This document shows, in pieces, positions 5,430 to 32,033 of a stretch of DNA of 35,828 nt; positions within the stretch are counted from its first letter, which is position 1, and every line of letters begins with the position of its first letter. A program made the position numbers and the translations under genes. Under the pieces are notes generated by a model. The model saw only the letters and a list, made by a program, of their open reading frames with translations. It searched no databases and was not told where the DNA came from. The stretch is taken from positions 1 to 35,828 of the forward strand of contig JAIPDT010000012.1 in NCBI GenBank assembly GCA_021737545.1, read 5' to 3'. The DNA comes from Desulfobacteraceae bacterium. GTDB lineage: Bacteria; Desulfobacterota; Desulfobacteria; Desulfobacterales; Desulfosalsimonadaceae.

Positions 5430-7275
5430 TCAAACACCGGAGCAAAATGCGGACGGCCACGGGGCCGGGCTTGCAGAGACTCTGGCCCGCGTGCCGCACA
5501 GCCCCGGCGTTTATCTGATGAAAAATTCCGCCGGCAAAGTTATTTACGTAGGCAAGGCTGCGGATCTTAAAAACCGTCTGGGGTCATATTTTTCAAACTC
5601 GAGCCGGCTGGATGCCAAGACCGGCGTGCTTGTAAAACATATCTCAGAGTTTGAAACCATTGTGACGGCCTCCGAGGCCGAGGCCCTGATCCTGGAATCC
5701 AACCTGATCAAGCGCCACCGGCCCCGCTACAATGTGATCTTAAAGGATGATAAGCGCTATCCGTCCCTGCGCATAGATGTCAACCAGAAGTATCCAAATC
5801 TTACGATTGTGCGCAGGACAAAAAAGGACGGAGCCCTGTATTTCGGGCCGTACCCTTCTGCCGGAGCCGTCAGGCAGACTCTTAAGATGATTCACCGGAT
5901 GTTCAGGCTGCGAAAGTGCCGGTATTCACAGGTTAAGCCCCGCGAACGTCCCTGTTTAAACTATCAGATCGGAGCCTGTCTTGCACCGTGTTGCCGTGAA
6001 GTTGACCCTGAGGAGTACCGCAGAATTGTAAACGAGGTACGGATGTTTTTACAGGGCCGCACCCCTGATCTTATCCGCAGAATTGAATCCCAGATGCAGG
6101 AGGCTGCGGAATCCCGGGATTTTGAAACAGCCGCCAGGCTGAGAGACAAGATGTATGCCCTGGAAAAGACCATGGAAAAACAGGTGGCGGTTACCACCGA
6201 CTTTGTGGACCGCGACGTGATAGCATTCAAACGGGCACAGTCAAAAGCGGTGGTCATGTTGCTCAAGGTGAGAAACGGCTATCTTCAGGGGATGCGCGAT
6301 TTTTCCTTCTCAGACGAAATCTCGGCGGATCAGGAAATCCTGGGAGCATTTATCAAGCAGTATTACGGAGAAAACGAGTCGATACCGGATGAAATGCTGA
6401 CCGGCATAAAGTTGCCAGACCAGGAGTTATACGGGAGATGGCTGTCTGAAATCCGGAACAGAAAAGTGGTTCTGCGCACTCCCGTCCGCGGGGAAAAAGC
6501 CCGCTTGGTACGCATGGCTTATGAAAACGCCGGCCAGCGACTGGCAGCCATTACAGAAGAACAGAATACAGCAGCCCTTCTGCTTTCAGGTCTGCACAAA
6601 AGGCTGTCCCTTATGCGCTATCCCCGCAGGATCGAGTGTGTGGACAATTCCGGGCTTTTCGGCACCGACCTGGTTGCCGGTCTTGTGGTATTTGAAGACG
6701 GCGCGCCGGAAAAATCCGATTACAGGCAGTACAGGATAAGGCAAATTTCCGCCCAGGACGATTACGGTTGCATGAGGGAAGTGCTTTCCCGCAGATTTGC
6801 AGACATGGAAAAAGAAGATGCCATGCCAAAACCGGATCTGCTGATGGTAGACGGCGGCAAGGGGCAGCTCAATATCGCGCTTGCAGTATTAAAGGAACTG
6901 GGTATCTCCGGGCGTTTCAATGTAATCGGTATTGCCAAGAAAGACGAGCGCAAAGGCGAGAAAGAAGACAAGATCTATCTTCCCGGCAGGGCCAATCCAA
7001 TCAATTTTCAGAACAATATAGACGAGCTGCATCTTCTGCAGCGTATCCGGGATGAGGCCCACCGCAGGGCAATCTCCTTTCACAGGAAACGCCGCACCGA
7101 TCGCTCCCTTAAATCAGCATTAGACGATATTCCGGGAATCGGAAAGAAGCGCAAAGAGGTTCTGCTAAAGTACTACGGCAGCGTGCATGCCATTGGCAAT
7201 GCCCCGGTCGATGAACTGGCGGCCCTGCCGGGCATGACGAAAAAGGCGGCCGAAACCCTCCGCTCGGAGTTATAA
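5404..7275 (+). CDS. uvrC: Excinuclease ABC subunit C
   Basis: Dual-incision nuclease of nucleotide excision repair. Domains run in order: GIY-YIG nuclease making the 3' cut (about 29-110, GVYLMKN and VIYVGKA), a Cys-containing region, the UVR domain binding UvrB (about 220-255, [19 protein letters not shown]), the RNase H-like nuclease making the 5' cut (ECVDNSG, VDGGKGQ and the conserved His in [14 protein letters not shown]), and a C-terminal tandem helix-hairpin-helix ([25 protein letters not shown]). The length of 623 aa is typical. The start is uncertain: no ATG precedes the GIY-YIG domain, so TTG 5404 (or TTG 5410), overlapping uvrB by about 26 nt, is proposed with translation coupled to uvrB. 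The conserved part begins around residue 24, so a later GTG start cannot be excluded. Confidence 0.96.
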
Positions 7276-20094: not shown

Positions 20095-23000
20095 ATGAAA
20101 GAACCGAAGTCATATACCGGATATGCAGATCGAATAGAGGCCGAAAGCACGGAAACCGAGACCATGGGCATATGCCTGGGCGCTTCCACGGTCTCCCTTG
20201 TGCACCTTGGAATTTCTGAGCAGGGTTCACCCTCCAGAATTATTTCGGCTTCAGCCGGTCCCCACGGCGGCAACCCCAGAAAGACCCTGCTGTCGATGCT
20301 CAAAGATTCGGATGCGGAACGCTGCAGCAGTGTAGTGGCAACCGGCAGGCGTTTCAGGGAGTTTGTAAACCTTACCACCATCTCCGAGCCGGAAGCAGTG
20401 GAACACGCCTATCGCCATGTTAGGCCCGCCAACACGCATTGTCCGGCAATTGTATCCGCAGGCGGAGAGACTTTCATGGTATATGTACTCGATGAAAGGG
20501 GGCGGATCGCAAATGTGCTCACAGGAAACAAGTGCGCTTCCGGCACGGGCGAATTTTTCATGCAGCAGTTAAGGCGCATGGGAGTAAACCTTCAAGAGGC
20601 CGCGCACTGGTCCGCCACAGAAACTCCGTATCAGGTCTCCGGAAGATGCTCGGTATTCTGCAAATCGGACTGCACTCACGCCATAAACAAGGGCGTGCCC
20701 AAGTCCAGGGTCACCGCCGGGCTTTGCCGTATGATGGCAAACAAGATCCTGGAGCTTTTAAAACACATAGACAAGAAAAATATCATGATAGTGGGCGGAT
20801 CAGCCCAGAACAAGATGATGATAGACTATCTGGATCAGGCCGTTTCCGGTTTGATCGTGCCTGATGAGGCCCCGTATTTCGAGGCCCTGGGCGCGGCTCT
20901 CTGGGCTGGGCAAAATAACGCATCCCCCCTGCCTGATAAAGAAGAGAATCTGTTTGTTCGTGGTGCGGCCTCGTTTGATATTCTTCCCAGGCTCAAAGAC
21001 TATGAAGACAGGGTTACCTTTAAATACGTCAACAGAAGAGAAATAAAAGAAGAAGACGAATGCATCCTGGGCCTGGATGTGGGCTCCACAACCACCAAGG
21101 CGGTGTTGATGCGAATTCAGGATGACGCAATTGTCGCATCCGTTTATCTTTACACTCACGGCGATCCTGTCGGAGCCTCCCGTGCCTGCTACCGGGAGCT
21201 TTTAAACCAGGTGGAACAAAAAGTGGACCCCGGCCGCATTTCTGTCACCGGCCTGGGGGTCTGCGGCTCCGGGCGCCAGATCGCGGGCCTGCACGCGCTC
21301 ACTGACGGGGTTATAAATGAAATAGTGGCTCACGCCGCGGCAGCGGTGCACTTTGATCCCGAGGTGGACACTCTTTTTGAAATAGGCGGACAGGACGCCA
21401 AGTATACATATATCACAAGCGGGGTGCCTTCTGATTACGCCATGAACGAGGCATGCTCTGCAGGCACCGGCTCTTTTCTCGCCGAATCAGCGGAAGAAAC
21501 CCTCGGCGTTGATGTGGAAGAAATCGCCGATGTTGCCATGCAGGCAGAGATGCCGCCGAATTTCAATGACCAGTGCGCGGCCTTTATATCCTCCGACATT
21601 AAGACCGCCGTACATGAGGGGGTGGCACACGAGGACATTATCGCAGGGCTGGTCTATTCAATCTGTATGAACTACATAAACCGGGTCAAAGGCAACCGCC
21701 CGGTAGGCGGCAAGGTGTTCATGCAGGGCGGGGTGTGCTACAACAAAGCCGTCCCGCTTGCCATGGCCGCCTTGTCTTCCAAGCCAATAATCGTGCCTCC
21801 TGAACCGGGCTTGATGGGAGCTTTCGGCGTAGCTCTGGAGATTAAGAAACGCATTGACATGGGGCTGATGGGAAAAAAGGATTTTGACTTGAAAACTTTG
21901 GCTGAAAGGGAGGTGGCCTACAAGAAGTCCTTTATCTGCAAAGGCGGCAAAGAGAAATGCGATCGGGGATGCGAAATCGCGGTTATAGAGCTTGAAGGGA
22001 AAAAATATCCTTTCGGCGGTGCATGCAACCGATATTACAACCTGCGCTATAATATTGAATACGATATAGAGGCCCTGGATCTTGTAAAGAGGCGTGAACA
22101 CCTTGTGTTTGACAAGTATGCGGCAGACGGAGCCGATATCTCCGAGATGCGGGGCAGTATCGGCATCAACAAGAGTTTTCTGACAAACACATATTATCCG
22201 CTCTATTCCAATTTCTTTGCCGGCACAGGTTTCAAGCCTGTACTATCCCCACGGCCCGAGACCGGGGGGATAGATATGAGAAATGCGGCTTTCTGCTTCC
22301 CGGCTGAGCTGTCGCACGGATATTTCTATTCATTGATAAATGATACCGATCCGCCGGATTTCCTTTTCCTTCCTCATGTCAAGGCAATCAGCGTGGAAAA
22401 CGGCCTTCCCAATGCCCAGGTCTGCCCTTTTGTGCAGGGAGAACCCTATTATTTGTCCACGACCTTCCGCGGGCGCCTGGCTGAGTTGAAGGAAAAAGGA
22501 AGCCATGTCCTGTCTCCTTTTATCGACATGACACGGGGGCTGGATGAAGCCCGTCAGCCCCTGATCGATTGCGCCCTTGAGATGGGAGTGGACCGAAAGA
22601 CAGCCGAGACCGCGTTTGAAGCTGCAAAGCAGAGTCAAATTGCTTGTTTTGAAGAAATGAAACAAATCGGCTCACAAGCCCTGGCACAGCTGGAAGCCGA
22701 TTCCGATAAAATCGGGGTGGTGATTTTTTCCAGACCTTATAACGGACTGGTGGAAGAAGCCCACATGGGCATTCCTCATAAACTGGCATCCAGGGGTGTC
22801 TACGTAATCCCCCTGGATTTTCTGCCCATAGAGCATGAGGATTCCAAACGCCATATGTACTGGGGCATGGGGCAACTGATTTTGAAAGCCGCCAGATACG
22901 TAAAAAAACATCCCCGGTTGTTCGGTACCTATATCACCAATTTTTCATGCGGCCCCGATTCTTTTGTGGTCGGTTATTTCAGGGAGGTCATGGGCAGAAA

Positions 23001-24489
23001 ACCCTCGCTGACCCTGGAGCTTGACAGTCATACTGCGGATGCAGGCATCGAGACCCGTATAGAAGCGTTTCTGGATATTGTTGCCGAGTACCGTCAGCTG
23101 CTGCTTTCAGGAAGCCAGCCTCAGGAACGGGAACCTTTCACACCCGCCCGGGCATTTATGGAAAACGGCACCCCAAGGGTCAAAATTTCTGACGGAAGCG
23201 TTCTTCCACTGACAGACCCGAAGGTTACTTTTCTGATTCCTTCCATGGGGCGGCTGGGCACCGAATTGGTGGCTGCCGCATTCCAGGCATCGGGGTTTCA
23301 CGTAGCGCCCCATCCGCCGGCTGATGAAAACGTGCTCAAGCTGGGAAGAGCGCATACATCATGCAAGGAATGTCTGCCGCTGATTCTGACAACAGGGACC
23401 CTGTTGAATTATGCGTACAACAAGAAACGCGGGGATGAGATTCTGGTCTATTTCATGGCATCCGCGTCAGGACCGTGCCGTTTCGGCCAGTACTCTGTTT
23501 TCATGGAGGATTTGGTACGCAGGCTGGAATTAAAGGACGTGGCCATTTTTTCGCTTACTTCGGATAATACTTATTTCGGCCTCGAGCAGCACTTAAATTA
23601 CTACAAGACGTGGTGGGCTCTTGTGATCTCCGATTTGATGGAGGACATCCGTTCCATGTTGCTTGCAAATGCCGTGGATACCGACCATGCAATGCGGGTA
23701 TTCGAGTCCCGGTGGCAGCCGATAGTGGACGCAATGATCAGCGGGGGATTCAAGCAGATTATTGGCCGGTTGGAAGAAAGCGTGGATGCGCTTTCCTCAA
23801 TTCCTATGCAGAGGGACCCGGCAGATGTGCCCACAATCCTGATTACAGGAGAAATTTTTGTCAGACGCGATTCTCTTTCAAGGCAGTATCTGACAGAGCG
23901 GCTTGCGGAAAAGGGCTTTGCGGTGATTTGCTCGCCGGTTTCCGAATGGATAAGATATTCGGATTATTGTATCGAAACCGACAGCGAAAACTGGGCCCAA
24001 ATGTCTTTGGGACAGCGGCTCAAATTCCGGATCAGAAAGCTTTTCATGAACCGCTACGAAAAGCGGATCGCAGAGACTCTTGCAAAAAGCGGTCTGTCTC
24101 ACAACAATTCCTCAGAGGTTGGCACTGTAATCGAAAACGCTTCCCCTTATATTTCTCCAAGATTGGGAGGCGAGGCTATACTTACCGTGGGCTCCGCCCT
24201 GACCGAAATAGCTTCCGAGGTTTGCGGGGTGGTTGCCATCGGCCCGTTCGGATGTATGCCCAACCGGGTATCAGAGTCAATTCTCACCGAGGTAATGACG
24301 CGGCGCGACAAGCTGAATATCCCGAACAGGGAAGCCTACACGGAGACCGTTCTTTCAGATGTGGAATCCCTGCCGTTTTTGCCGGTTGAAAGCGACGGAT
24401 CCCCGTTTCCCCAATTAATCGAAGCCAAATTGGAAGCCTTCTGCCTTCGGGCCAGGCGGCTGCATGAGCGGATGCGAACGCTGAACTGA
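20095..24489 (+). CDS. Giant acyl-CoA dehydratase activase (BadF/BadG/BcrA/HgdC family, double ATPase plus DUF2229 and HgdB-like region)
   Basis: A 1464-aa protein of the family that uses ATP hydrolysis and a 4Fe-4S cluster to drive low-potential electron transfer, as in 2-hydroxyacyl-CoA dehydratases and benzoyl-CoA reductases. Two ASKHA ATPase halves are fused. The first (about 22-275) has both cluster-type cysteines, C147 in NKCASGTG and C185 in GRCSVF, but its phosphate-1 loop is degenerate (ICLGASTVS). The second (about 323-585) has an intact LGLDVGSTTTK, C454 in NEACSAGTG and C494 in NDQCAAF. A four-cysteine patch follows (C615, C622, C626, C644), then DUF2229 (from about 685) and a C-terminal ~700-residue part with HgdB/HgdC-like Cys motifs (NFSCGPDSF, TSCKECLPL, SGPCRFGQYS). 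Start ATG 20095; only a weak ribosome-binding site. The true substrate of this fused type is not established. Confidence 0.88.
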   Translation: MKEPKSYTGYADRIEAESTETETMGICLGASTVSLVHLGISEQGSPSRIISASAGPHGGNPRKTLLSMLKDSDAERCSSVVATGRRFREFVNLTTISEPEAVEHAYRHVRPANTHCPAIVSAGGETFMVYVLDERGRIANVLTGNKCASGTGEFFMQQLRRMGVNLQEAAHWSATETPYQVSGRCSVFCKSDCTHAINKGVPKSRVTAGLCRMMANKILELLKHIDKKNIMIVGGSAQNKMMIDYLDQAVSGLIVPDEAPYFEALGAALWAGQNNASPLPDKEENLFVRGAASFDILPRLKDYEDRVTFKYVNRREIKEEDECILGLDVGSTTTKAVLMRIQDDAIVASVYLYTHGDPVGASRACYRELLNQVEQKVDPGRISVTGLGVCGSGRQIAGLHALTDGVINEIVAHAAAAVHFDPEVDTLFEIGGQDAKYTYITSGVPSDYAMNEACSAGTGSFLAESAEETLGVDVEEIADVAMQAEMPPNFNDQCAAFISSDIKTAVHEGVAHEDIIAGLVYSICMNYINRVKGNRPVGGKVFMQGGVCYNKAVPLAMAALSSKPIIVPPEPGLMGAFGVALEIKKRIDMGLMGKKDFDLKTLAEREVAYKKSFICKGGKEKCDRGCEIAVIELEGKKYPFGGACNRYYNLRYNIEYDIEALDLVKRREHLVFDKYAADGADISEMRGSIGINKSFLTNTYYPLYSNFFAGTGFKPVLSPRPETGGIDMRNAAFCFPAELSHGYFYSLINDTDPPDFLFLPHVKAISVENGLPNAQVCPFVQGEPYYLSTTFRGRLAELKEKGSHVLSPFIDMTRGLDEARQPLIDCALEMGVDRKTAETAFEAAKQSQIACFEEMKQIGSQALAQLEADSDKIGVVIFSRPYNGLVEEAHMGIPHKLASRGVYVIPLDFLPIEHEDSKRHMYWGMGQLILKAARYVKKHPRLFGTYITNFSCGPDSFVVGYFREVMGRKPSLTLELDSHTADAGIETRIEAFLDIVAEYRQLLLSGSQPQEREPFTPARAFMENGTPRVKISDGSVLPLTDPKVTFLIPSMGRLGTELVAAAFQASGFHVAPHPPADENVLKLGRAHTSCKECLPLILTTGTLLNYAYNKKRGDEILVYFMASASGPCRFGQYSVFMEDLVRRLELKDVAIFSLTSDNTYFGLEQHLNYYKTWWALVISDLMEDIRSMLLANAVDTDHAMRVFESRWQPIVDAMISGGFKQIIGRLEESVDALSSIPMQRDPADVPTILITGEIFVRRDSLSRQYLTERLAEKGFAVICSPVSEWIRYSDYCIETDSENWAQMSLGQRLKFRIRKLFMNRYEKRIAETLAKSGLSHNNSSEVGTVIENASPYISPRLGGEAILTVGSALTEIASEVCGVVAIGPFGCMPNRVSESILTEVMTRRDKLNIPNREAYTETVLSDVESLPFLPVESDGSPFPQLIEAKLEAFCLRARRLHERMRTLN

Positions 24490-28603: not shown

Positions 28604-29371
28604 GTGAAACCGGGATGCAGGGCAACAGATGGCGCCTGGATGCAGTGCGGATTTACACTGCTTGAAATGCTGATCGCCGTTGCCATATTCGGAGTGATTG
28701 CCACCATAGTTTACAGCTCCTTTAATGCTCTGATATCAAGGACGGATACAATCAAGTCGGAAGCCGCTGTTCATGAAATGGCGGCCAACTGCCTGAACCG
28801 TATAAGCAGGGATCTGCAGGCGCTTTATGTGGAACAGCCTCCGTTATACAAGCCGCCCGACTACGATGATGATCCCGATCCATACCGGTTTGCCGGAGAA
28901 ATGGATTATACCGGCAGTAAGCGGTTTTCAAGGCTTGGTTTTGTCTCAAGCGAGCATCTTGTCATGACCGGGCAGCGGCATTACGATCCCGAAGGTAAAA
29001 CACCAACGCGCTCGGGCCTGGCAAGGATCCGATATCATGTGGACACGTATCAGGACAAGGAGTCGGATTCCGGGTATGCATTAAAAAGGGGGGATAAGCC
29101 GTTTCCATACGATGAACTCCACGGCACAACCGAGCCTGAAAAAGACCCGGTCCTGTGTACCGGAATAACCGAATTGTCGTTCGTCTATCTGGATTCAGCG
29201 GGAAACGAGTTTGAAACCTGGAACTCCGAGGATGAAGGCAGGGATTATGCCACCCCCCGGGCCGTGCAGGTGGCATTGAAAATCAATGCCGACGGCAGGG
29301 AGCATAGTTTTTCAACCCGTATTGTTTTGCCTGTCTATAGGGAGCCCATAGAACGTGTTAAACGACAATAA
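28604..29371 (+). CDS. gspJ: Type II secretion minor pseudopilin GspJ-like
   Basis: A 255-aa prepilin with a 16-aa leader ending WMQCG, mature start FTLLEMLIAVAIFGVIATIVYSSF and Glu at +5. The large globular domain, with AANCLNRISRDLQALY, TGITELSFVYLDSAGNEFE and AVQVALKI, is typical of GspJ, a tip-complex partner of GspI and GspK. The start is GTG 28604, 2 nt after the gspI stop, with GAGAGGGG upstream. The last 17 nt overlap gspK. Confidence 0.93.
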   Translation: MKPGCRATDGAWMQCGFTLLEMLIAVAIFGVIATIVYSSFNALISRTDTIKSEAAVHEMAANCLNRISRDLQALYVEQPPLYKPPDYDDDPDPYRFAGEMDYTGSKRFSRLGFVSSEHLVMTGQRHYDPEGKTPTRSGLARIRYHVDTYQDKESDSGYALKRGDKPFPYDELHGTTEPEKDPVLCTGITELSFVYLDSAGNEFETWNSEDEGRDYATPRAVQVALKINADGREHSFSTRIVLPVYREPIERVKRQ

Positions 29372-30440
29372 GGGCATAGCGCTGTTAATTACCCTGTCTG
29401 TTGTTGTGATTCTGGTTGCCACGGGTTTTGAGTTAAACCGGCAGATCAGTTCCTCTGCCTCAAACACCGGGATCCGGCGGGATATGATGACGCTGCAGCA
29501 AAAGATATCCTCGGGCGTGCGCATTGCAGAGTCGATTCTTGTTGCTGACAAAAAAAACACAGAAGTCGATTCAGTCCAGGAGGACTGGGCTGATCCGGAA
29601 ATTGTGCAGCAATATTTAAACAAGACCGGATTTGAACAAAGCAGTCTTTCAGTGAATATTACAGACGAGCTGAGCCGTCTTCAGATAAATGCGCTGGTCG
29701 GATTTCCAGCGGGAAAAGAGTTTAATGAAGCCCAGCGAAAGCTGTGGGTGAGGTTTTTCGATCTTGCAATAAGCCTTCAGGAAAACAGTGAAAATCAAAA
29801 TTTATTATCTGAAACACTTGAACCTGACATGATAATAAATCCTGTAAAAGACTGGCTTGATTCCGGAGACAATGACGCCATTACTGGCTTAAGCGGGGCG
29901 GAACAGGACTATTACAGAAATCTTAACCCGCCCTATGCCTGCCGCAACGGACGGTTCAGGCATGTTTCCGAACTGCTGCGGGTAAAAAATATCAATGCAG
30001 ATATGTTTTTCCGGATAGATGAAAATGGAGGCATAAGGGATTTTATAACCGTTCACGGCATGGCGCCCTCGGGAAAGGACCGCAATAATGCCGCATATCC
30101 CGGCAAAATAAATATCAATACCGCCCCTGAACCGGTGCTTGCAGCCATGCTGCCGGCAGGCCATGAATTTCTTGCATCAGAAATCGCCGCATACAGAAAA
30201 GAGACCGCAGGCGGTGATTTTGTCAACAACCTGCATGATGCCAACTGGTATAAAAACGTCCCGGGCATGGGAGACGTAGATATCGACAGCAATCTGATCA
30301 CCACGAAAAGCGACCTGTTCCGCATCAGTTGCGAGGCCGGCAAACAGGGAAGCCGGCTTGCCGCAACCGTAATAGTAGGAAGGGAAAAAGACGAATCCGG
30401 AAAATGGCAATGCAAAGTGTTGAATTGGGAGTATGAATAG
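29355..30440 (+). CDS. gspK: Type II secretion minor pseudopilin GspK
   Basis: A 361-aa protein, the large tip pseudopilin. It has a very short leader (MLNDNKG) before IALLITLSVVVILVATGFELN; as expected for GspK the mature position 5 is not Glu. The two helical SAM-like insert regions appear in the central and C-terminal parts (PVKDWLDSGDNDAITGLSG...YYRNLNPPYACRNGRF; INTAPEPVLAAML). It starts with GTG inside the end of gspJ (17-nt overlap), implying translational coupling. It is followed by the heptamer-repeat array before gspL, the only large interruption in the gsp operon. Confidence 0.93.
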   Translation: MLNDNKGIALLITLSVVVILVATGFELNRQISSSASNTGIRRDMMTLQQKISSGVRIAESILVADKKNTEVDSVQEDWADPEIVQQYLNKTGFEQSSLSVNITDELSRLQINALVGFPAGKEFNEAQRKLWVRFFDLAISLQENSENQNLLSETLEPDMIINPVKDWLDSGDNDAITGLSGAEQDYYRNLNPPYACRNGRFRHVSELLRVKNINADMFFRIDENGGIRDFITVHGMAPSGKDRNNAAYPGKININTAPEPVLAAMLPAGHEFLASEIAAYRKETAGGDFVNNLHDANWYKNVPGMGDVDIDSNLITTKSDLFRISCEAGKQGSRLAATVIVGREKDESGKWQCKVLNWEYE

Positions 30441-30449
30441 GCTATTGGT

Positions 30450-30561
30450 GACGGAGGGCAGAAGACAGAGGACAGAAGACAGAGGACAGAGGACAGAGGA
30501 CAGAATGCGGAAGGCAGAAGGTAAAGGGTAGAGGGTAGAGGGTAGAGGGTAGAGGATGGAA
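30450..30561 (+). repeat. Array of 16 purine-rich 7-nt repeats between gspK and gspL
   Basis: From 30450 the sequence divides exactly into 16 heptamers with consensus G-R-Y-R-G-A-R; 14 of the 16 fit at every position. The first block is mostly GACAGAG/GACAGAA and the last block is GGTAGAG four times in a row. The length is 112 nt with no interruption. The + strand is nearly all purine apart from one pyrimidine per unit. It occupies almost the whole gspK-gspL gap and ends 5 nt before the gspL ATG, so the AGAGGATGGA at its end may serve as ribosome-binding site. It contains no gene. Confidence 0.9.
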
Positions 30562-30566
30562 CGTAA

Positions 30567-32033
30567 ATGAGCAGCAGAATTTTTGCACTCGATATTCGTG
30601 AATCCGGTCTGAGCGCGGTTCTGGTCAAAACCGGCATAAAGGAGAACAGACTGGAAAACCGGATATACGTGGATTTTGCCAAGGCGCCGGATCCTGAGCA
30701 CAAACTGGACTGGGCGGTCGAAAGGGCGGTCGCAGGTATTGACCCGGCAGGGGCTTATTGCCTTGTTTCCATTCCGCCTTCCGTGGTCTCTTTTCGCAAT
30801 ATTTCGGTGCCCTTTAAGAACCGGAAAAAAATCAGACAGATCCTCCCTTTTGAACTCGAACCCACCCTTCCCCTGGAAATCGAGAAGGTAAAACTTGATT
30901 TCATGGTGGTGCGCCAGGCAGAGCAAACCGATCTGATCGTTGCCGCCGCGGAAAGACAGAAGCTGGAGGATACACTCGATCTGCTGGGCCGCCACGGCAT
31001 CTCCCCCCGTTATGTAACCACGGGCGGAGTGCCTGCGGCGATGTGCCTTGCTGAAAGTTCGGCCTTTGGTTTAAAGGATTTTCTTTTTATAGACAACGAC
31101 CGGTCCGGTGCAACCGCTTGCCTGGTTGTCGAGGGCAGGGTTTCGCTGGTCAGAACACTGCGAAAAACCCCGCAGTCCGGGGACGCCGCCTCATCTGCAA
31201 AAGAGCTTTCCGCCGAAATCCGTCGTATGCTCTCGGCATTCGAATCCATCTATGATACTGAACTAAACCTTGAAAAACTTGTGATTTCAGGTTTTGGGGC
31301 CGAGGATCAGTACTTTGTCTCAGCCCTTGAAACCGCTCTGGGAATTAATGCGGACTGCCTTAACTTAAAGAATGATACGGATCTTAATATTTCAGTTGCC
31401 GAAGATATGCAGGCCGGCCCTGAGATATACGGGGCGTTCTGCCTTGTCGGGGTCGAGGTCCCGGGCTTAAAGCCTTTCAATTTCGGCCGTCGTCATTCGG
31501 CCTTTGAAAAATACTGGAATGAAAACCGGCCCCTGATTATTACGTCCGTAGCCCTGGTGTTTTTTGTTTTACTTCTGTTTATCACCCAGGTTGCCATGGA
31601 AGCGCATTTTCTGGAAAGACGGGTTTCCGCTGTAGAAAGACGGATTGTTGAGCAATACAGATCTGCTTTTCCGGACGACGGGCGGATTGTTGCTCCGGTC
31701 CAGCAGATGAAAGCAAAGCTCGGGCAGGCCAAGGGAAAAGACGGCTTTGTCAAACAGGCCGGCTCAGATATTTTGAATGTAGATATTCTGAAAAATATCA
31801 GCCGGCTGATCCCGGAAAGAACGGATGTAGTAATAACCCGGTTTGTAAGGGACAGCGGCGGTGTTCAGCTGTCAGGTCTGACCGGAAGCTTTAATGCCGT
31901 GGATGATATAAAGATGCAGCTTGAAAAATCACCGCATTTGAATCAGATTGCCATAAGTTCTGCAAATATGGACAGAAACGCAGAGCGTATTCGTTTCAGA
32001 ATAAAGGCCGGGCTTGCAGGTGAGGGTCAATGA
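30567..32033 (+). CDS. gspL: Type II secretion inner-membrane platform protein GspL
   Basis: Couples the cytoplasmic ATPase GspE to the inner-membrane assembly. The 488-aa protein has a PilM/actin-like cytoplasmic domain (about 1-310: IFALDIRESGLSAVLV, VSFRNISVPF, ILPFELEPTLPLEIE, FIDNDRSGATACLVVEG), one membrane helix (about 322-341) and a periplasmic ferredoxin-like domain (VDILKNISRLIPERTDVVITRF...LSGLTGSFNAVDDIKMQL). The stop overlaps gspM by 4 nt (ATGA). The start follows the purine repeat array directly. Confidence 0.93.
   Translation: MSSRIFALDIRESGLSAVLVKTGIKENRLENRIYVDFAKAPDPEHKLDWAVERAVAGIDPAGAYCLVSIPPSVVSFRNISVPFKNRKKIRQILPFELEPTLPLEIEKVKLDFMVVRQAEQTDLIVAAAERQKLEDTLDLLGRHGISPRYVTTGGVPAAMCLAESSAFGLKDFLFIDNDRSGATACLVVEGRVSLVRTLRKTPQSGDAASSAKELSAEIRRMLSAFESIYDTELNLEKLVISGFGAEDQYFVSALETALGINADCLNLKNDTDLNISVAEDMQAGPEIYGAFCLVGVEVPGLKPFNFGRRHSAFEKYWNENRPLIITSVALVFFVLLLFITQVAMEAHFLERRVSAVERRIVEQYRSAFPDDGRIVAPVQQMKAKLGQAKGKDGFVKQAGSDILNVDILKNISRLIPERTDVVITRFVRDSGGVQLSGLTGSFNAVDDIKMQLEKSPHLNQIAISSANMDRNAERIRFRIKAGLAGEGQ

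Follow-up and report, generated by a model that had tools for sequence, protein, structure and literature searches.

A GRYRGAR heptamer array between gspK and gspL in a Desulfobacteraceae genome, and the frequent placement of similar arrays after sense stop codons

The hmw genes of Haemophilus influenzae carry phase-variable 7-bp repeats. The heptameric repeats of Xanthomonas and Nostoc have the units GGGAATC and GGGGA(C/T)T (Rehm et al. 2015, PMC4692102). The same study noted an over-representation of heptamers among bacterial repeats, conjectured its cause, and left a role unproven; none was assigned, and the idea cited is that a heptamer fits the segment of DNA held by the polymerase. In another report, TAACTGA direct repeats are described from Beggiatoaceae, Cyanobacteria and Bacteroidetes, and in BOGUAY they mostly lie just before start codons (MacGregor 2015, PMC4679880). 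Two further sources describe the satellite (GATAGRA)n of Chloroflexus aurantiacus, with 22 satellites of family Fam_1_14_23 scattered in one genome (Satellites in the prokaryote world, PMC6749651), and 49 four-unit heptanucleotide elements of Geobacter metallireducens, which have the consensus GGACCGG and are annotated as predicted regulatory RNA (PMC2700814). Here we describe an array of a different unit, GRYRGAR, within a gsp operon. We consider it probable that this array is a slippage-grown, dispersed SSR that forms an unstructured, co-transcribed spacer, its influence on gspL being small at most.

The array lies in contig JAIPDT010000012.1 of assembly GCA_021737545.1 (Desulfobacteraceae bacterium). 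By the window we mean the whole stretch of DNA that was analysed, 35,828 nucleotides of this contig. Its relevant features are as follows.

29355 to 30440, plus strand: gspK (T2SS protein K), an ORF with a predicted start; Pfam T2SSK_1st, 6e-11; TAG stop at 30438-30440.
30450 to 30561, plus strand: heptamer array of 112 nt, with 16 in-phase GRYRGAR units; the purine strand is the sense strand.
30464 to 30505, plus strand: sub-block A, six GACAGAR units (units 3-8).
30526 to 30549, plus strand: GGG(TAGAGGG)3, a predicted canonical G-quadruplex motif of type G3N4; 17 nt separate its end from the gspL ATG.
30527 to 30554, plus strand: sub-block B, four GGTAGAG units (units 12-15).
30552 to 30555, plus strand: GAGG, within the array, the closest Shine-Dalgarno-like match found before gspL.
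30567 to 32033, plus strand: gspL (T2SS protein L), an ORF; Pfam T2SSL, 1.5e-9, and PilN.

The initial annotation had described 16 in-phase 7-nt units of the form GRYRGAR, with sub-blocks of GACAGAR and GGTAGAG, separating gspK from gspL, and all of this was confirmed. Fourteen of the 16 units match GRYRGAR at 7/7 positions and the other two, TGCGGAA and GGTAAAG, at 6/7; both sub-blocks are present, and the ORFs and Pfam place gspK and gspL on either side. Pfam also recognizes GspG, GspM and GspC of the T2SS cluster near the array, with a weak GspJ match under the cut-off. The gap between gspK and gspL is 126 nt, of which the array takes 112, starting 9 nt past the gspK stop and ending 5 nt ahead of the gspL ATG. 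TRF reports period 7 over 30450-30504 and 30516-30555, and the lag-7 identity is 0.81 across the 112 nt of the array versus 0.40 in the best other 112-nt stretch of the window. Adjacent units are more similar than in shuffled order (20 differences versus a mean of 31.6, p = 0.00085). A strict-threshold scan of lags 2-15 in two samples gave nothing beyond this array, which appeared at lags 7 and 14; we infer that the lag-14 signal is the same array. The outermost units may be ancestral flank, as a comparison by eye with two relatives suggests: at one end GCTATTGGTGACGGAGG is similar to GGTATTGGTGATAGGAT of relative G016, and at the other GATGGAACGTAAATGAGC is similar to TATGAAACGTCTATGAGC of relative G006. 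Elsewhere in the window, positions 20095-24489 encode a 1464-aa protein with the Pfam families BcrAD_BadFG ATPase and DUF2229, a large ORF resembling a CoA-enzyme activase.

Of 60 genomes, 59 gave GspL matches with E <= 0.001, and the weakest matches are perhaps PilM-like relatives only. Among eight named genomes compared, the highest GspL identity is 30-31%, in uncultured Desulfobacterium TRIP AH-1 and Desulfobulbaceae UBA2213. The gspL loci of 30 genomes, our own included, were compared. None of the 29 relatives has an array before gspL (0/29) in a loose-score scan of up to 300 nt of upstream sequence; for one locus the sequence scanned is just 5 nt. The upstream ORF can be read in 25 of the 29, where the gap to gspL ranges from 0 to 263 nt and is at most 60% purine, apart from one 10-nt gap. 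Because the relatives have no array and their gaps vary, the gsp array appears to be a lineage-specific addition to a gap that is free to vary in length. A conserved gsp element is ruled out by the absence of an array from the scanned stretch before gspL in the 29 relatives. The 263-nt gap between gspK and gspL in relative G016 (L041) contains a repeated TTTTTACGAGACCATAAACTATGA and is perhaps a small mobile insert in the same place. In five relatives of genus g2 (G009, G024, G029, G032 and G035) the GspL match has one TAA inside the aligned stretch, which may be the natural end.

Similar arrays occur at other sites in the same genome, where the initial annotation had proposed looking for copies. 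A degenerate 28-nt pattern, allowing up to three mismatches, matched on six contigs, that is, on five in addition to the window's contig. One array lies between ATP-sulfurylase/APS-kinase and UDP-glucose/GDP-mannose dehydrogenase genes and another between the gene for a PALP enzyme (trpB-like) and trpA; one follows an RloB gene, one follows a PhoU gene, and one is antisense beside an amidohydrolase gene. One neighbouring ORF has no Pfam family. Three arrays are located inside a single Zn-dehydrogenase/Gfo-Idh ORF on contig C17 (L063:3769-5475). Set against four homologues, the first appears as an in-frame insertion of 17 residues and the second falls in a linker longer than those of all four; these two arrays add residues in frame. 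The third, which is short and antisense, occupies a variable loop with no net gain relative to two of the four. The sequence GGTGACGG opens three of the arrays in this genome, the gsp array among them. On contig C180 the arrays at L066:3430-3563 and 5630-5706 change from GTCAGTR to GACAGAR units with the phase kept, the second following an RloB-like gene. The end of contig C17 also overlaps a contig end of relative G001 (L231, G001:C115) over 177 nt at 96.6% identity, versus 58% identity between the GspL proteins of the two genomes, which suggests a recent transfer or a mixed bin.

Within the family, the pattern matches in 20 of 36 genomes. Among named genomes at least 115 stretches hold three tandem copies of GACAGAR, mostly in metagenome-derived genomes among the matches listed, in agreement with the earlier statement that similar arrays occur in other environmental bacteria. 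Eighty loci among the matches listed come from Acidobacteria, Deltaproteobacteria, Accumulibacter, Gallionella, Omnitrophota and others, and further titles among them include Planctomycetota, Verrucomicrobia, Bacteroidales, Turneriella and Coleofasciculus. We found no report on GRYRGAR arrays from this bacterial group in the open-licence literature, and of the 21 open-licence papers that print a copy of the unit, none among the 20 listed seems, by title and abstract, to be a bacterial repeat study.

The repeats of Rehm et al. and the GRYRGAR arrays are alike in being heptameric, G- or purine-rich on one strand, dispersed, mostly intergenic with some intragenic copies, and variable in unit number, the latter for GRYRGAR arrays at two orthologous sites in relatives. 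As with the repeats of Rehm et al., copies stand in unrelated contexts (six contigs with mixed neighbours in this genome), and the gsp array, 9 nt past the gspK stop, shares their position within 50 bp after a stop on the coding strand. Four G-tracts, also typical of those repeats, are present in the gsp array (30526-30549, a predicted quadruplex) but in only one of the eight arrays of its own genome. Unlike those repeats, the arrays described here have the unit GRYRGAR, with A and G mixed at three positions, and carry the G-quadruplex motif in just 2 of the 27 arrays from the own and family genomes. The Geobacter elements are likewise dispersed inter- and intragenic heptamer arrays, although four-unit and GC-rich; (GATAGRA)n of Chloroflexus is a purine-rich heptamer close to GAYAGAR in sequence, in another phylum; and the TAACTGA repeats, whose role is proposed and unproven, are also intergenic heptamer arrays with a patchy distribution across distant phyla.

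The position of the arrays relative to the upstream gene is biased. The own and family set comprises 26 loci, in which a loose score gives 37 arrays; we picked its 20 family stretches from the matches listed. In 25 of the 29 arrays of this set with both flanks known, the purine strand is the coding strand of the upstream gene, and the gene downstream of these 25 points the same way in 15 and is convergent in 10. A stricter count over the own, family and named sets gave 64 intergenic arrays. In 24 of the 64 (own 3/6, family 9/17, named 12/41) a sense stop lies no more than 15 nt from the 5' end of the array; these arrays are not phylogenetically independent, two of them being one orthologous thiolase pair. 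The mirror test, for an antisense stop no more than 15 nt from the 3' end, gives 1/64. The repeats of Rehm et al. are also found near starts on the non-coding strand, whereas only 2/64 GRYRGAR arrays have such an antisense start no more than 15 nt from the 5' end. The remaining 40 of the 64 lie more than 15 nt from any sense stop. Because crude ORF calls might mislead, the 24 stop-adjacent upstream ORFs were scanned with Pfam; 23 have a family and one has none, and their functions are very mixed.

In the named set tight stop adjacency is biased and overall orientation is not, with 33 upstream genes in sense and 26 in antisense (n = 59). Among 16 arrays on viral contigs, four are near a sense stop, none is near an antisense stop, and four are near a sense start. 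The absence of strand bias inside genes depends on the gene caller, sense and antisense arrays numbering 11/11 by one caller and 11/4 by another (11/5 in the viral set). The Pfam check of genes thus strengthens the stop association, and the dependence on gene caller weakens one supporting point. Convergent partner arrays within 200 nt, a further trait of the repeats of Rehm et al., accompany 13/59 named and 11/32 viral arrays, counts in which a pair may be entered twice, and 0/26 own and family arrays; divergent partners within 200 nt were found for no named or viral array, and the one-strand background for partner arrays is 31/2794 pieces. A dinucleotide Markov null with one copy per locus yielded 0 arrays at the same score. 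It replaced a reversed-sequence null (26 matches versus 37 arrays), which was discarded since the real unit and its reversed form overlap. A hairpin following the arrays, suspected by eye in some named-set loci, was ruled out by 50-nt folding energies, which are -10.5 downstream, -10.3 upstream and -10.5 at random positions (p 0.83 and 0.94).

Pyrimidine-rich RNA in untranslated mRNA is a loading site for Rho. The bias in position and strand might accordingly stem from selection alone, arrays with pyrimidine-rich sense RNA being removed and purine-sense arrays surviving within operons. The sense orientation of the upstream gene in 25/29 family arrays with both flanks known is what such selection would leave. 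However, termination past a stop ought to be harmless in convergent gene pairs, yet antisense arrays adjacent to a stop amount to just 1/64, and we regard selection alone as an improbable source of the bias. It concerns the bias rather than the array itself, and is compatible with a dispersed repeat grown by slippage.

The end of the array near gspL raises a separate question. The initial annotation had proposed that the array could tune gspL translation, and tuning or phase variation might operate through spacing, through Shine-Dalgarno-like repeats, or through a GGGTAGA quadruplex switched by the loss of a unit. The array does end 5 nt before the ATG, the Shine-Dalgarno-like GAGG matches found just upstream of gspL (30538, 30545 and 30552) are all borne by it, the canonical G-quadruplex motif has a single other occurrence in about 290 kb of stretches from this genome, likewise inside the window, and unit turnover is observed in relatives. 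Against this, start-proximal arrays are rare and stop-proximal ones common: a sense start lies no more than 15 nt from the 3' end of 3/64 intergenic arrays, the gsp array included, versus the 24/64 beginning near a sense stop. In addition, the motif occurs in 1/8 own, 1/19 family and 0/74 named-set arrays, the relatives have no array before gspL, and a change in intergenic length moves no reading frame. We consider control of gspL by the array unlikely. The place of the array had also been tied to the gspL ribosome-binding site, a claim that found no support, given that arrays track the stop of the upstream gene with the downstream gene in either orientation. As a general rule, a ribosome-binding-site array is ruled out, for the arrays accompany stops and not starts.

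The RNA from 30420 to 30620 is no more stable than its shuffles (z +1.43, from a folding program that, as far as is known, ignores quadruplexes), by which a structured leader is ruled out. A known structured RNA is likewise ruled out, with 0 Rfam matches in the window at the gathering score. The block of four G-tracts would leave a small chance of a local effect on gspL. The most likely reading for the gsp operon is a harmless spacer.

A regulatory site for an RNA- or DNA-binding protein, by analogy with what was proposed for the TAACTGA repeats of Beggiatoaceae, would account for dispersed arrays with a common consensus, and binding by S1, Csp or Csr-type proteins is proposed for this other heptamer (MacGregor 2015, PMC4679880). 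The units differ, however, and so does the placement: the TAACTGA repeats of BOGUAY mostly lie just before starts, as described there, whereas GRYRGAR arrays follow stops, occur inside ORFs as well, and come close to a sense start in just the 3/64 noted above. The relatives examined have no array at the gsp site, and the genes ahead of GRYRGAR arrays are functionally mixed. A binding site would thus be a quite improbable reading of the gsp array.

The initial annotation had further stated that the array can change in length. Unit number does differ at two orthologous arrays of relatives, each pair following a common gene end, with 9 versus 7-8 units in G005 and G004 (13 differences in 237 nt of adjoining coding flank) and 12 versus 16 units in G030 and G023. 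A change was not seen at the gsp array, which has no counterpart in the 29 relatives, so that the differences in unit number come from these two other sites. Together, the two unit alignments span 133 columns; 28 of these differ, with 18 transitions. Such differences at orthologous sites point to family arrays that keep their place while their unit content turns over. Like the hmw repeats, the gsp array is a heptamer repeat whose unit number may change, although it adjoins no surface-antigen gene and switching would be hypothetical here.

In the slippage explanation that we prefer, the array would have arisen in this lineage in the gap past the gspK stop, and units would then have been duplicated, lost and substituted (mostly by transitions), so that the array grew or turned over as slippage in replication or repair would give. 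Between gspK and gspL it would be co-transcribed as an unstructured purine-rich spacer, probably neutral at this locus. Two observations speak against simple slippage as the copying step. Like units are clustered (p < 0.05) in just 1/7 own and 2/18 family arrays, and A and G appear to be freely mixed at unit positions 2, 4 and 7, which is unexpected under simple slippage. Moreover, slippage enlarges a seed, and the recurrence of GRYRGAR at new sites in one genome is left unaccounted for.

The heptameric SSR found here is ordinary in kind. The more interesting matter is the frequent start of such repeats at stops, with the purines on the sense strand. In eukaryotes, RNA:DNA hybrids arise at purine-rich GAA/TTC repeats. 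As a guess at the post-stop preference, ribosomes would have left the mRNA past the stop, and behind RNA polymerase a purine-rich non-template strand would allow RNA:DNA hybrids that favour expansion. We tentatively extend this idea to unrelated phyla, and think it rather doubtful, that their post-stop, sense-purine heptamer arrays are products of one shared transcription-coupled process, in which RNA:DNA hybrids formed where ribosomes leave lead to 7-base slippage. If this is true, the end of translation marks the birthplace of such repeats and quadruplex formation is incidental. The association with stops in arrays that mostly lack G-tracts, in many phyla, sets the rule of placement apart from the formation of quadruplexes, and makes the stop-codon rule a testable clue to the origin of heptamer repeats.

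GRYRGAR is one among several heptamer repeats of the lineage. In 256 kb of its own genome, a non-random TRF sample that includes the window and other array-bearing contigs, four of the five repeats with at least four copies have period 7 or 14. The heptamer units are CATACCC, CAAGGTT, CTTTCAC and GACAGAR, and the fifth repeat is an 18-mer. In 400 kb of relative G005, all repeats with at least four copies have period 7 (5/5), with the unit ACTTAAC or its complement, and are mostly copies of one interspersed repeat. A privileged status of the unit across the phylum is not clear: three exact copies of GACAGAG occur in 4 of 395 genomes (14 matches), and the mirrored heptamer occurs in equally many (4/395, with 5 matches).

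Several distinct units within one genome also bear on the proposal that the repeats are written from an RNA template by a telomerase-like reverse transcriptase of the DRT10 type. DRT10 does produce tandem-repeat DNA, with 9-nt repeats in the studied system (PMC12632851). The multiplicity of heptamers argues against such a source, as does the finding of 0 RVT_1 (PF00078) matches in our 93% complete genome, a result that led us to disfavour reverse-transcriptase templating; we hold it to be extremely unlikely.

Other heptamer arrays have features of their own. On contig C2 of this genome a CAAGGTT array (L319:2489-2534) is directly followed by a partly inverted copy. In G005, ACTTAAC arrays with shared flanks are located at L293:9963-9994, L297:19691-19722, L301:8324-8355 and L301:19586-19617. 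These ACTTAAC arrays are followed by a palindrome like CCTGTAAAAAAGACTTTTTACAGG, and each thus forms an interspersed repeat in which a heptamer block stands beside a hairpin.
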